A stretch of DNA of 64,000 nt from Stenotrophomonas sp. ASS1 (lineage in GTDB: Bacteria > Pseudomonadota > Gammaproteobacteria > Xanthomonadales > Xanthomonadaceae): contig NZ_CP031167.1 in assembly GCF_004346925.1 (NCBI RefSeq), positions 702,001 through 766,000 on the forward strand. Direction: 5' to 3'. A model generated the notes under the pieces. The model saw nothing but the letters and a program-made list of their open reading frames with translations. It was not told the origin of the DNA and ran no database searches. The position numbers and the translations under genes are program-made. This document shows, piece after piece, positions 2,958 to 12,885 of the stretch (its first letter is position 1; every line of letters starts with the position of its first letter).

Positions 2958-2973
2958 GTAGAGTCGAGCCATG
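2958..2973 (+). repeat. SMAG palindrome, left part, interrupted by IS110 copy 1
   Basis: A GTAGAGTCGAGCCATG segment directly abuts the left end of the insertion sequence. Its missing right half, CTCGACTG, is found at 4178 just after the element. Rejoining the two flanks gives a SMAG-type palindrome, so this repeat was the insertion target. Confidence 0.85.
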
Positions 2974-3199
2974 CTTGTATGTTCCTCCCGGCTCCTACGA
3001 GGTATGTAGGAGCCAGGGTGGAGGGACCGTCAAGCATGCATCTGCGGATACTAGCCGACAGACGAGTCGAGCGATCCCCATCCCGCACACGAACGTCGAT
3101 AAAGGATCGTACGGCCCCCAAAGGGGATCGTCGATGTAGGCAAGCTAACGTCGGTGCGGTACCACCCCAGCCCCTTAAAGATAGCTGGGAGCCGTACAA
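2974..3199 (+). ncRNA. Candidate bridge (guide) RNA of IS110 copy 1
   Basis: This leader lies between the element's left end and its transposase, where IS110-group elements encode a bridge RNA that pairs with target and donor DNA. It starts with a clear hairpin: GGCTCCTAC at 2990-2998 pairs with GTAGGAGCC at 3006-3014. GAGTCGAGC at 3064-3072 is identical to nine bases of the SMAG target at 2961-2969, so it is a candidate target guide. AGGATC at 3103-3108 matches the right end plus core at 4173-4178, a candidate donor guide. The assignment rests on position and these matches. Exact RNA ends are unknown. Confidence 0.6.
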
Positions 3200-4162
3200 A
3201 TGTCTGATTCTCTCGATATTGGCGTGGACGTGGACTCCAAGGAGTTCGTACCGGCAGTGGCCGACCGCAAGGCCGGCGACAGGATCGCCAACACCCGGGC
3301 CGGCATAGCCCAGTGGCTCAACACCTTGCCCCAGCGATGCCGGATTGGCATGGAGGCGACGGGGCGGTACTACGAGTTGTTGGCTCGGATGGCTGGCCAG
3401 GCAGGCCACGTTGTCTATGTGATCAATCCACGTCTGATCAAGCACTACGGCCGGGCGACGGGCTCGCGTGGCAAGACGGACGCCATGGACGCCGAAGCGA
3501 TCGCCCGATACGTGAAGAAGGAGAACGATCGCCTGCGTGAATACGTACCGCGTACCGATGAGCAGCAGCAGATGCACGATTTGCTGCGCAAGCGGCAGAC
3601 GCTGGTAAAGACACGCGCGCGCCTGGAGCAATCCTTCGGGGTAAGCAAAAGTGCCCCCGGGGAGCTGTCAGATCTGTTCTGCGCTCTGGCTGGGACGCTG
3701 TCCGAGCTGGAAAGCGAACTGCAGCGCTTGGGTCGCGATGGAGAGCATGGCACGCTCTACAAGCGCCTGTTGACCATCCCTGGTATCGGCCCCGCTGTCG
3801 CCGCTCACCTGATCTACTACATGACGCGCTGGCCGTTGGCCAACGCCAACGCGTGGATCGCCTGCACCGGCCTGGATCCCCGGCCCAACGAGTCTGGCGG
3901 AAGAACGGGACGGCGTCGGCTGTCCAAACAGGGCGCGCCAGTGCTGCGCCAGATGCTCTACATGGCCGCCATGGGGCTCAAGCGGTGTCGCCAGGGGCAA
4001 CCGCTCTACGACGAGCTGTCAAAACGCGGTCACCCCAGCACCGCCGTCTTCAACATCCTGGCCAGAAAGCTGGCCAGGATCGCCTGGGGTGTCTTCAAAA
4101 GCGGCCGGGACTTCGATCCGGCCATGCTGAAGGTGGGTCAAGCCTGCTTCCAGCAGGCTTGA
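3200..4162 (+). CDS. IS110-family DEDD transposase, copy 1
   Basis: A 320-residue recombinase. The N-terminal RuvC-like half carries DIGVDVDSKEF, RIGMEATGRYY and GKTDAMDAEAIARY, which supply the acidic DEDD residues. A coiled segment around residues 110-170 follows. The C-terminal Tnp/transposase_20 half has LTIPGIGPAVAAHL, then GLDPRPNESGG and LSKQGAPVLRQMLY, where the family's serine nucleophile lies. The length is normal and the frame intact, so it is probably active. The only protein difference seen between the two copies is Gln here versus Arg in the second, within KRCRQGQP. Confidence 0.95.
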   Translation: MSDSLDIGVDVDSKEFVPAVADRKAGDRIANTRAGIAQWLNTLPQRCRIGMEATGRYYELLARMAGQAGHVVYVINPRLIKHYGRATGSRGKTDAMDAEAIARYVKKENDRLREYVPRTDEQQQMHDLLRKRQTLVKTRARLEQSFGVSKSAPGELSDLFCALAGTLSELESELQRLGRDGEHGTLYKRLLTIPGIGPAVAAHLIYYMTRWPLANANAWIACTGLDPRPNESGGRTGRRRLSKQGAPVLRQMLYMAAMGLKRCRQGQPLYDELSKRGHPSTAVFNILARKLARIAWGVFKSGRDFDPAMLKVGQACFQQA

Positions 4163-4212
4163 CCACGAACATAGGATCTCGACTGCTCTTCTCAGACTGC
4201 CCCGCGTACAGC

Positions 4213-4296: not shown

Positions 4297-5364
4297 ATGG
4301 ATTCCCTGACCCAGATCGTGCTCGGCGGCGCCGTCGCTGCTGCCATCGCCCCGCCCGGACATCGCCGTGCGGCCCTGCTGGCCGGTGCTGCGCTCGGCAC
4401 CCTGCCGGACCTCGACGCCCTGTGGCTCGGCTTCACTGCCGCCGACCCGGTGGCGAACATGATCGAGCACCGCAGCTTCAGCCACTCGCTGCTGGTGCTG
4501 CCTTGGGTGGCGGCACTGATCTGGTGGTTGTTCAAGCGCTTCGGCAATGGCCGCGTCGCCCAGTCACCGGTGCGCTGGTTCTGGGCGATCCAGCTGGCGC
4601 TGGTCACCCATCCCATGCTGGATGCGTTCACCGTCTACGGCACCCAGCTGTGGTGGCCGCTGCGCCCACACCCGACCATGGGTTCCAGTGTCTTCATCAT
4701 CGATCTCGGCTACACGGTATGGCTGCTGCTGGGCTGCGTGCTGGCCTGGTTTGGTCGCGCCCGCCCCTGGGCTGGCAAGGTGCTGGGTGTGGCGTTGCTG
4801 GTCAGCAGTGCATACCTGGGTTGGGGCCTGATCGCCAAGGCGCAGGTCGACCGTGCTGCCCAGCAGAGCCTGGCGGCGATGGGCCTGGGCGATGCGCCGC
4901 GCTTCTCGGTGCCGATGCCGTTCAACACCCTGCTGTGGCGCGTGGTGGCAATGACGCCGAACGGCTACGTGGTGGGCGACCGCTCGCTGGTGGCCGACCA
5001 CGGGCCGATGCGGTTCGAAGGCCACGCATCCAACGTGCAGGCCTTGCGCGAAGCGCAGGCCATCCCGGCGGTGCAGCAGCTGACGTGGTTCAACCGTGGC
5101 TTCATGCGTGCGCAGGTGGTGGACGGCCGGCTGGTGCTGAGCGACCTGCGTATGGGGCTGGAACCGGACTACACCTTCAACTTCGCGGTGGCCGAGCAGG
5201 CTGATGGGCAGTGGCGGGCGATCACGCCCGAGCAGGTGCGGGTGGATTACAGCAGCCCGGCTGCACGCGCCGACGTCGGACGCCGGTTGGCCGCGATGTG
5301 GCAGCGGATCTGGCAGGAGCCGGCAGCACAGCCGGGTGCGGTCGACCACAGCGCCGTGCATTGA
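4297..5364 (+). CDS. Membrane-bound metal-dependent hydrolase, DUF457/YdjM-like
   Basis: A 355-residue inner-membrane protein. The N-terminal half has the family features: MDSLTQIVLGGAVAAAI, then LPDLDAL near residue 47, EHRSFSHSLL near 64 and THPMLDAFTVYGTQ near 105, giving the scattered Asp/His residues thought to bind metal. About four or five hydrophobic segments lie in the first 190 residues. The C-terminal 160 residues are soluble and not clearly assigned. The biological substrate of this family is not known. It is the first gene inside the segment bounded by the two IS110 copies and appears to be monocistronic. Confidence 0.8.
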   Translation: MDSLTQIVLGGAVAAAIAPPGHRRAALLAGAALGTLPDLDALWLGFTAADPVANMIEHRSFSHSLLVLPWVAALIWWLFKRFGNGRVAQSPVRWFWAIQLALVTHPMLDAFTVYGTQLWWPLRPHPTMGSSVFIIDLGYTVWLLLGCVLAWFGRARPWAGKVLGVALLVSSAYLGWGLIAKAQVDRAAQQSLAAMGLGDAPRFSVPMPFNTLLWRVVAMTPNGYVVGDRSLVADHGPMRFEGHASNVQALREAQAIPAVQQLTWFNRGFMRAQVVDGRLVLSDLRMGLEPDYTFNFAVAEQADGQWRAITPEQVRVDYSSPAARADVGRRLAAMWQRIWQEPAAQPGAVDHSAVH

Positions 5365-11652: not shown

Positions 11653-11696
11653 CAGGTTGGTCGGGTCTTCGTAGAGTCGAGATCCTATGTTCGTGG

Positions 11697-12659
11697 TCAA
11701 GCCTGCTGGAAGCAGGCTTGACCCACCTTCAGCATGGCCGGATCGAAGTCCCGGCCGCTTTTGAAGACACCCCAGGCGATCCTGGCCAGCTTTCTGGCCA
11801 GGATGTTGAAGACGGCGGTGCTGGGGTGACCGCGTTTTGACAGCTCGTCGTAGAGCGGTTGCCCCCGGCGACACCGCTTGAGCCCCATGGCGGCCATGTA
11901 GAGCATCTGGCGCAGCACTGGCGCGCCCTGTTTGGACAGCCGACGCCGTCCCGTTCTTCCGCCAGACTCGTTGGGCCGGGGATCCAGGCCGGTGCAGGCG
12001 ATCCACGCGTTGGCGTTGGCCAACGGCCAGCGCGTCATGTAGTAGATCAGGTGAGCGGCGACAGCGGGGCCGATACCAGGGATGGTCAACAGGCGCTTGT
12101 AGAGCGTGCCATGCTCTCCATCGCGACCCAAGCGCTGCAGTTCGCTTTCCAGCTCGGACAGCGTCCCAGCCAGAGCGCAGAACAGATCTGACAGCTCCCC
12201 GGGGGCACTTTTGCTTACCCCGAAGGATTGCTCCAGGCGCGCGCGTGTCTTTACCAGCGTCTGCCGCTTGCGCAGCAAATCGTGCATCTGCTGCTGCTCA
12301 TCGGTACGCGGTACGTATTCACGCAGGCGATCGTTCTCCTTCTTCACGTATCGGGCGATCGCTTCGGCGTCCATGGCGTCCGTCTTGCCACGCGAGCCCG
12401 TCGCCCGGCCGTAGTGCTTGATCAGACGTGGATTGATCACATAGACAACGTGGCCTGCCTGGCCAGCCATCCGAGCCAACAACTCGTAGTACCGCCCCGT
12501 CGCCTCCATGCCAATCCGGCATCGCTGGGGCAAGGTGTTGAGCCACTGGGCTATGCCGGCCCGGGTGTTGGCGATCCTGTCGCCGGCCTTGCGGTCGGCC
12601 ACTGCCGGTACGAACTCCTTGGAGTCCACGTCCACGCCAATATCGAGAGAATCAGACAT
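11697..12659 (-). CDS. IS110-family DEDD transposase, copy 2
   Basis: A 320-residue protein identical to copy 1 except for one Gln-to-Arg change (KRCRRGQP here). All DEDD and serine-region motifs are intact, so both copies could supply recombinase. The gene reads away from the heme locus, towards the aldo/keto reductase. Near identity of the two copies indicates recent transposition or ongoing gene conversion. Confidence 0.95.
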   Translation of the reverse strand: MSDSLDIGVDVDSKEFVPAVADRKAGDRIANTRAGIAQWLNTLPQRCRIGMEATGRYYELLARMAGQAGHVVYVINPRLIKHYGRATGSRGKTDAMDAEAIARYVKKENDRLREYVPRTDEQQQMHDLLRKRQTLVKTRARLEQSFGVSKSAPGELSDLFCALAGTLSELESELQRLGRDGEHGTLYKRLLTIPGIGPAVAAHLIYYMTRWPLANANAWIACTGLDPRPNESGGRTGRRRLSKQGAPVLRQMLYMAAMGLKRCRRGQPLYDELSKRGHPSTAVFNILARKLARIAWGVFKSGRDFDPAMLKVGQACFQQA

Positions 12660-12885
12660 TTGTACGGCTCCCAGCTATCTTTAAGGGGCTGGGGTGGTAC
12701 CGCACCGACGTTAGCTTGCCTACATCGACGATCCCCTTTGGGGGCCGTACGATCCTTTATCGACGTTCGTGTGCGGGATGGGGATCGCTCGACTCGTCTG
12801 TCGGCTAGTATCCGCAGATGCATGCTTGACGGTCCCTCCACCCTGGCTCCTACATACCGCGTAGGAGCCGGGAGGAACATACAAG
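12660..12885 (-). ncRNA. Candidate bridge (guide) RNA of IS110 copy 2
   Basis: Reverse-strand counterpart of the leader in copy 1, with the same first hairpin (one loop base changed) and the same GAGTCGAGC candidate target guide. Transcription would run from the heme-locus side into the transposase gene. Position in the element and identity to copy 1 are the basis; RNA ends and promoter are not established. Confidence 0.6.

Follow-up and report, generated by a model that had tools for sequence, protein, structure and literature searches.

An IS110-group element of Stenotrophomonas and its predicted bridge RNA for insertion into REP palindromes

The window analysed here, a 64,000-nucleotide stretch of the Stenotrophomonas sp. 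ASS1 genome (G000), contains an IS110-group insertion sequence of 1,206 bp with the core dinucleotide CT at either end. Its non-coding leader very probably encodes a bridge RNA of the IS621 type, predicted from sequence and by analogy to direct the element to the CT within REP palindromes of the GTAG-tagged (SMAG) kind. Selection of insertion sites is likely to depend on RNA pairing, because the guide letters differ between related elements together with the palindrome class. The features of the window copy are listed in the table.

Positions of the element, its target and the predicted RNA features in the window
Feature	Position	Strand	Basis
IS110-group element, window copy	2974..4179	+	Ends common to 12 copies; flanks meet in REP
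Second element copy in the window	11680..12885	-	G000:C1:713680-714885, minus strand
Transposase (recombinase), 320 aa	3200..4162	+	PF01548, PF02371, NF033542, 8wt6, IS621 protein
Left arm of target REP, GTAGAGTCGAGCCATG	2958..2973	+	Sequence; agrees with REP class SM11 as given in PMC3686654
Right arm of target REP, CGACT after core CT	4180..4184	+	CGACT in 12/12 copies
-35-like TTGACC at right end	4159..4164	+	Pairs with TATGTT across circle junction
-10-like TATGTT at left end	2978..2983	+	Circle junction; also in G019 and G121
Predicted bridge RNA body	2990..3160	+	MFE of the stretch; ends inferred
5' stem-loop, 9 bp	2990..3014	+	Fold prediction and pair check in nine leaders
Target-binding loop domain (predicted)	3016..3084	+	Fold; same layout in G225 (33% amino acid identity)
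Left target guide AAGCATGC (predicted)	3032..3039	+	Before invariant AUCUG; columns 61-66 vary in an otherwise conserved leader; 1-nt slip needed
Right target guide GAGTCGAG, complementary to CTCGACTC	3064..3071	+	Junctions concordant with guide class, 48/48
Donor-binding loop domain (predicted)	3085..3157	+	Hairpin retains all pairs through two double changes
Left donor guide AAAGGATC, 7/8 with donor ATAGGATC	3101..3108	+	Sequence; exact AGGATC match
Right donor guide GCAAG, CAAG pairing with donor CTTG	3140..3144	+	Sequence; invariant in nine leaders
Handshake dinucleotide CT, pairing with target positions 7 and 6	3145..3146	+	Position 6 paired in 24/26 copies

The element and its insertion sites

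By its sequence, the element belongs to the IS110 group of the IS110 family. The transposase gene directly follows the leader, and its product contains the DEDD RuvC-like domain PF01548 (E 1.4e-23) and the C-terminal domain PF02371 (E 7.7e-17). It scores 200.2 bits against the NCBIfam model NF033542, "IS110 family RNA-guided transposase" (cut-off 140), and matches the IS621 structure 8wt6 (E 1.3e-30). Serine 232 (motif NESG) is aligned to S241 of IS621, numbered as in PMC11208158, and is invariant among six proteins. The non-coding left end (226 bp) is longer than the right one (17 bp), as is characteristic of the IS110 group. The window copy, the one considered for its gene context, is placed between open reading frames ending at 2948 and starting at 4297.

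Twelve copies with common ends are present in the ASS1 genome. Conservation of the leader, originally noted for the two copies of the window, extends across all of them: ten leaders are identical except for element position 27 (A or C), and two carry internal tandem duplications, a count that leaves out one further locus with unread bases. The duplications comprise 127 bp spanning the target loop and left donor guide (L018, near 300.5 kb) and 35 bp spanning the left donor guide (L019, near 3,457 kb). In another copy (L020, near 3,612 kb) the transposase gene is interrupted by a 42-bp insertion. An E. coli IS621 copy (L088) likewise contains an 85-bp tandem duplication in its leader, starting exactly at the CT core; among the ranked matches for IS621, all five best-ranked rows were joined from two pieces, compared with only one of 60 rows spread over the ranking.

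All 12 copies interrupt REP palindromes of the SMAG type at GTCGAGC-(3-4 nt)-CT-CGACT. Their left flanks end with GTCGAG followed by CATGG (five copies), CAAG (four), CCATG (two) or CCAG (one), and the right flank always starts with CGACT. Joining of the flanks across the element yields GTAG-tagged palindromes, with CTAC on the right in nine copies and GTAG on the left in two (L009 and L010). CT is assigned as the core because target (G-CT-C) and circle junction (GAT-CT-TG) have no other sequence in common; a short core common to target and donor, typical of the IS110 group, was found in 12/12 copies. Since the REP palindrome has a CT core on each strand, the guide would have a site in either orientation, and the ASS1 copies indeed occur both ways round with respect to the GTAG head. 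The REP pattern gave 152 + 148 matches in the genome, most palindromes being counted on both strands, in agreement with the early proposal that the target is an abundant chromosomal REP family.

Three REP classes described in PMC3686654 match the targets: SM11 (TGTAGAGTCGAGCCATGCTCGACT) and SM12 (GTAGAGTCGAGCTTGCTCGACT) fit the CTCGACT sites of ASS1, and SM9 (TGTAGAGCCGAGCCCATGCTCGGCT) fits the CTCGGCT sites of several relatives. They are RAYT-related repeats and not the element itself. According to PMC3733652, GTAG families 6 to 9 include repeats earlier named SMAG, and SM9, SM11 and SM12 presumably belong among these families.

The leader and its predicted fold

The 226-bp leader is structured, as originally noted, with an MFE of -90.7 kcal/mol versus a shuffle mean of -74.7 (z -3.5; 0/200 shuffles as stable). 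Folding from position 2990 predicts a 9-bp 5' stem-loop, an internal-loop domain (3032-3039/3064-3071) and a second such domain (3101-3108/3140-3144). The two loops anticipated for the leader were thus obtained from 2990, but the whole stretch 2974-3199 folds otherwise and at lower energy, the two-loop fold being the MFE only from this inferred start. Among four leaders folded, those of the window and G121 gave the complete two-loop architecture as the MFE of 2990-3160. The leaders of G127 and G053 shared the 5' stem-loop and target domain with the window; their donor domain differed in the MFE, and the centroid retained its outer stem and hairpin. Both inner hairpins of the predicted RNA contain a bulged A; for IS621, PMC11208158 describes flipped-out As.

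The 43 pairs of a structure based on the window leader were kept in 382/382 cells of nine leaders, versus 38-46% when it was slid along them. Double changes affected two pairs only, both in the donor hairpin and reflecting a single split, and shuffles reached this number of pairs in 217/500 cases. The covariation that had been sought for both loops is limited to the donor hairpin, and the target-loop helices showed no variation across the nine leaders. Support for the modelled two-loop architecture comes as much from homology and the inferred start as from energy. A search of Rfam gave no matches at gathering and one weak irrelevant match (E 0.7). When the initial 115 nt were compared among 12 leaders, a minor base shared by at least two leaders was seen in 14 columns, 12 of which correspond to the left guide, the hairpin loop or the right-guide base.

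A predicted sigma70-like promoter, TTGACC-17-TATGTT, exists only across the circle junction, with 9/12 consensus bases as judged by eye. Similar -35/-10 pairs are present in G019, G121, G225 and IS621, with TTGACC or TTGACT-17-TATGTT in G019 and G121. By analogy with IS621, excision of the element as a circle would rebuild this promoter, from which the bridge RNA would be transcribed. Its first loop would bind the REP, with the left guide pairing to the bottom strand and the right guide to the top strand, and its second loop would bind the donor junction of the element itself. The DEDD/serine recombinase would then exchange strands at CT.

Guides, targets and alternative explanations

The right target guide GAGTCGAG is complementary to top-strand CTCGACTC, core included; 7/8 bases pair in the window copy (target CTCGACTG) and 8/8 in nine of the 12 ASS1 copies. 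The original prediction of a bridge RNA directed to the REP is supported as to the IS110 group and the predicted target and donor loops, but the segment that it had taken for a copy of the left half of the target is probably the right guide. GAGTCGAGC is indeed identical at 3064-3072 and 2961-2969. It looks like the left half because the target is palindromic; its reverse complement equally gives the right arm GCTCGACTC, core included. Its role as a left guide was rejected, as in that reading it is not core-anchored, and relatives support the right-guide reading.

Comparison of guide changes with flanking targets in other strains, proposed at the outset, revealed that the right guide tracks the target. 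Guide and target class were concordant at 48/48 junctions from nine Stenotrophomonas genomes: 19 combine GAGUCGAG with CTCGACT (G000 12/12, G121 7/7), and 29 combine GAGCCGAG with CTCGGCT (G009 13/13, G008 7/7, G053 3/3, G127 3/3, and one each in G006, G111 and G019, the last recurring in G031 and counted once). Guide and right flank lie on one molecule in 26 of these junctions; in G009 and G008, leaders and right ends are on different contigs, and the leaders carry GAGCCGAG in 12/12 and 7/7 cases, respectively. The 48 junctions leave out G035, with CTCGACT in 6/6 right flanks and the right guide beyond contig ends, a G006 right-end fragment beside CTCGACTC for which the leader was not found, and G054, in which no right end was found. 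One G009 site of 12, read from its left flank, carries GTCGAG, which belongs to the other class. In the sequences compared, lineages with different target classes also have different right guides.

CTCGGCT types make up 28 of the first 100 REPs listed in G000, 21 in G121, 49 in G009 and 94 in G008. Given this listed supply, full concordance would arise by chance with probabilities of 0.019, 0.19, 9e-5 and 0.65, respectively, and jointly 2e-7, assuming independent insertions and representative first 100 REPs in each genome. Sites entered the REP lists only if their CTCTAC end was intact, a feature missing from three of the 12 ASS1 sites, and the G009 list covers only its first three contigs. 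G009 goes against its supply: CTCGACTC accounts for 51/100 listed REPs, yet 13/13 insertions are in CTCGGCTC (chance 9e-5). The more distant G225 element (33% amino acid identity) has GUAGGAG at the right-guide place and CTCCTAC as the right target in 4/4 loci, some of which may be one copy at two contig ends and two of which show five flank bases only; in the two loci with a left flank 7/7 pairs form.

Assignment of the left target guide to 3032-3039 is supported by these sequences but not settled. The corresponding segments are AAGCATGC in G000 and G035, AAGCAAGC in G121, AAGCATGG in G009, AACATGAT in the G053 group and GAGCATGG in G054. All seven G121 copies are in GAGCAAG sites with 7/8 left-guide pairs, a kind supplied by 52/79 listed CTCGACTC REPs (chance 0.05). 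Pairing is looser elsewhere, with 5-6 of 8 bases at the ASS1 sites, for which two registers are needed, and 4-5.5 in the G053 group. The left halves of the ASS1 sites roughly track supply. When a slip of one base is allowed, the own guide outranks the four others in G035, G121 and the G053 group; it comes second in G000 and third in G009 (4.12 versus 4.58). The 12 left sites of G009 comprise CATGG (five), CATGGG (six) and CATAGG (one), against a listed supply of 3/49 for CATGG with CTCGGCT (p 5e-4), in keeping with the guide shifted by one base; the CATGGG sites fit poorly (2/8). A single fixed register was rejected, as none fits the CATGG, CAAG and CATGGG sites together. The variable length of the palindrome loop may be absorbed by register slip.

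The donor guides are complementary to the junction of the element itself, as in a bridge RNA, with 7/8 pairs for AAAGGATC and CAAG opposite CTTG. AGGATC, reported originally at 3103-3108 and 4173-4178, is present at both places and forms part of the left donor guide. Once strands have been exchanged in IS621, two bases that follow its right donor guide form pairs with the target at positions 7 and 6 (PMC11208158). The equivalent bases are CU in G000 and G121, CC in G053, G127, G006, G019 and G111, and CG in G225. Pairing with target position 7 was found in 26/26 copies of the element and relatives and with position 6 in 24/26 (U-A 10, C-G 7, G-C 2, U-G 5), the two failures being CCATG sites; these counts omit two mini-elements without the region. 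In the target loop, the bases CG (3072-3073) do not pair with donor T7 and A6 as would be expected for an IS621-type RNA. C3072, following the right guide, pairs with target G7 instead. According to PMC11208158, IS621 no longer exchanged strands when the handshake bases in both loops were altered to match the cognate DNA. The target-loop handshake bases of G225, AU, do fit the donor.

The REP preference could also arise if the recombinase protein read the REP sequence or hairpin, the leader being just a structured 5' region and the guide matches by-products. REPs are entered by another family as well (IS1397 of the IS3 family, reported in PMC1525189), left-guide pairing is loose here, and guide class is partly confounded with transposase lineage, the read leaders of elements with 56-58% identity all carrying GAGCCGAG. 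Such protein reading is nevertheless improbable, since changes in the right-guide base are accompanied by changes in the target and handshake bases, the unrelated guide of G225 matches an unrelated target, and RNA guidance is experimentally established for IS621 (PMC11208160). The leader of G009 also argues against it: 95% like that of the window, it carries another guide and is associated with another target class, although no transposase for it was recovered from the assembly.

Guidance by the leader RNA also accounts better for the 8-nt match than chance or capture of a REP fragment without a guiding role. GAGTCGAGC is REP sequence, and REPs are abundant, but the match sits at the right-guide place of IS621-type RNAs, is anchored on the core, varies with the target in relatives and is replaced in G225 by a match to a different target, so that coincidence is very improbable. 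Spread of the copies by homologous recombination or REP/RAYT mobilisation, for which the composite site of L018 could speak (two REPs, with a 30-bp REP-REP interval on each side of the element, as unequal exchange would give), has equally little probability in view of the exact ends at the CT core in 12/12 copies with different surroundings.

Known systems and relatives

The element resembles IS621 (PMC11208160, PMC11208158; PDB 8wt6) in its DEDD and Tnp recombinase, long left end, CT core, donor junction AT-CT-TGTAT, 5' stem-loop and two loops with left and right guides, donor-loop handshake, circle-junction promoter and REP targets. It differs from IS621 in several respects. Protein identity to the E. 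coli IS621 (L088) is 32% over 288 columns. The right target guide has 7-8 nt, compared with 4 in IS621, and the left target guide is followed by AU, as in the donor loop of IS621. The core is inside the palindrome, whereas that of IS621 is next to the CTAC end of the palindrome, and the handshake base of the target loop matches the target instead of the donor.

Selective insertion into REPs is reported in PMC1525189 for the IS110-family elements ISPpu9, ISPpu10 and ISPa11. These are from other hosts and REP classes, and that 2006 paper predates guide RNAs. The seekRNA pair of ISEc11 and ISXne4 (PMC11187229) offers a natural case of re-direction through changed guide segments; as described there, both belong to the IS1111 family and, unlike the present element, have the two guide parts in reversed order. 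Earlier work had already described bridge RNAs, IS110 elements that target REPs, and re-aiming in nature (PMC11208160, PMC1525189 and PMC11187229). A literature search, with most subscription papers outside its scope, found no description of the guides of this element or of IS110 insertion into these REP classes. ISStma4, ISStma6 and ISStma7 are IS110 elements reported from S. maltophilia (PMC13296070), and the element may be one of them.

The Stenotrophomonas elements constitute a natural bridge-RNA programming experiment, with near-identical scaffolds and different guides within one genus and at least 100 countable candidate targets in most genomes examined. Separate insertions support the right guide and the donor-loop handshake rule. 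A testable exception is raised by the fit of a target-loop base to the target, since IS621 stalls upon such pairing. The data also suggest how an element can multiply by aiming at repeats that another family, the RAYTs, is thought to spread.

Protein searches revealed the close clade in 8/91 genomes of the genus (E 1e-40); in the family, 5/297 sampled genomes had matches at E 1e-30, including three from other genera with 33% identity. DNA searches matched 11/101 relatives, two only via weak 50-base matches. Across the genus, family and DNA relatives searched, the close clade was found solely within Stenotrophomonas. At the settings used, no homologues were detected by DNA in E. coli genomes or plasmids or by protein in viral contigs.

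The G019 copy (L055) shares 145/280 identical residues with the window transposase over codons 1-280, and third positions are identical in 59/139 same-residue codons. At the DNA level, the last 40 codons are 92% identical, the last 60 bp match at 59/60 positions and the first 115 nt of the leader at 105/115. The ends of the element may be exchanged between lineages, or they may be under strong constraint at the DNA level. It is possible, though on balance doubtful, that Stenotrophomonas IS110 lineages swap guide cassettes, with near-invariant scaffolds and ends exchanged between recombinases more than 40% different and with guides and handshake base re-aimed among the RAYT-spread REP classes SM9, SM11 and SM12.

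PMC12607529 reports a 2.4-Mb inversion in S. maltophilia SM 866 with an identical IS110 transposase on either side. Three internally deleted copies without a full transposase gene (L113, L114 and L115; 258, 279 and 464 bp) are present in G121, each in its own CAAG-type REP. They were rejected as non-autonomous mobile mini-elements; because each has its own end points, deletion in place is a simpler explanation than mobilisation. A left end in G054 (L029), located at a CATGGG REP, carries part of the end sequence a second time (CTTGTATGTTC, at a spacing of 11 bp).
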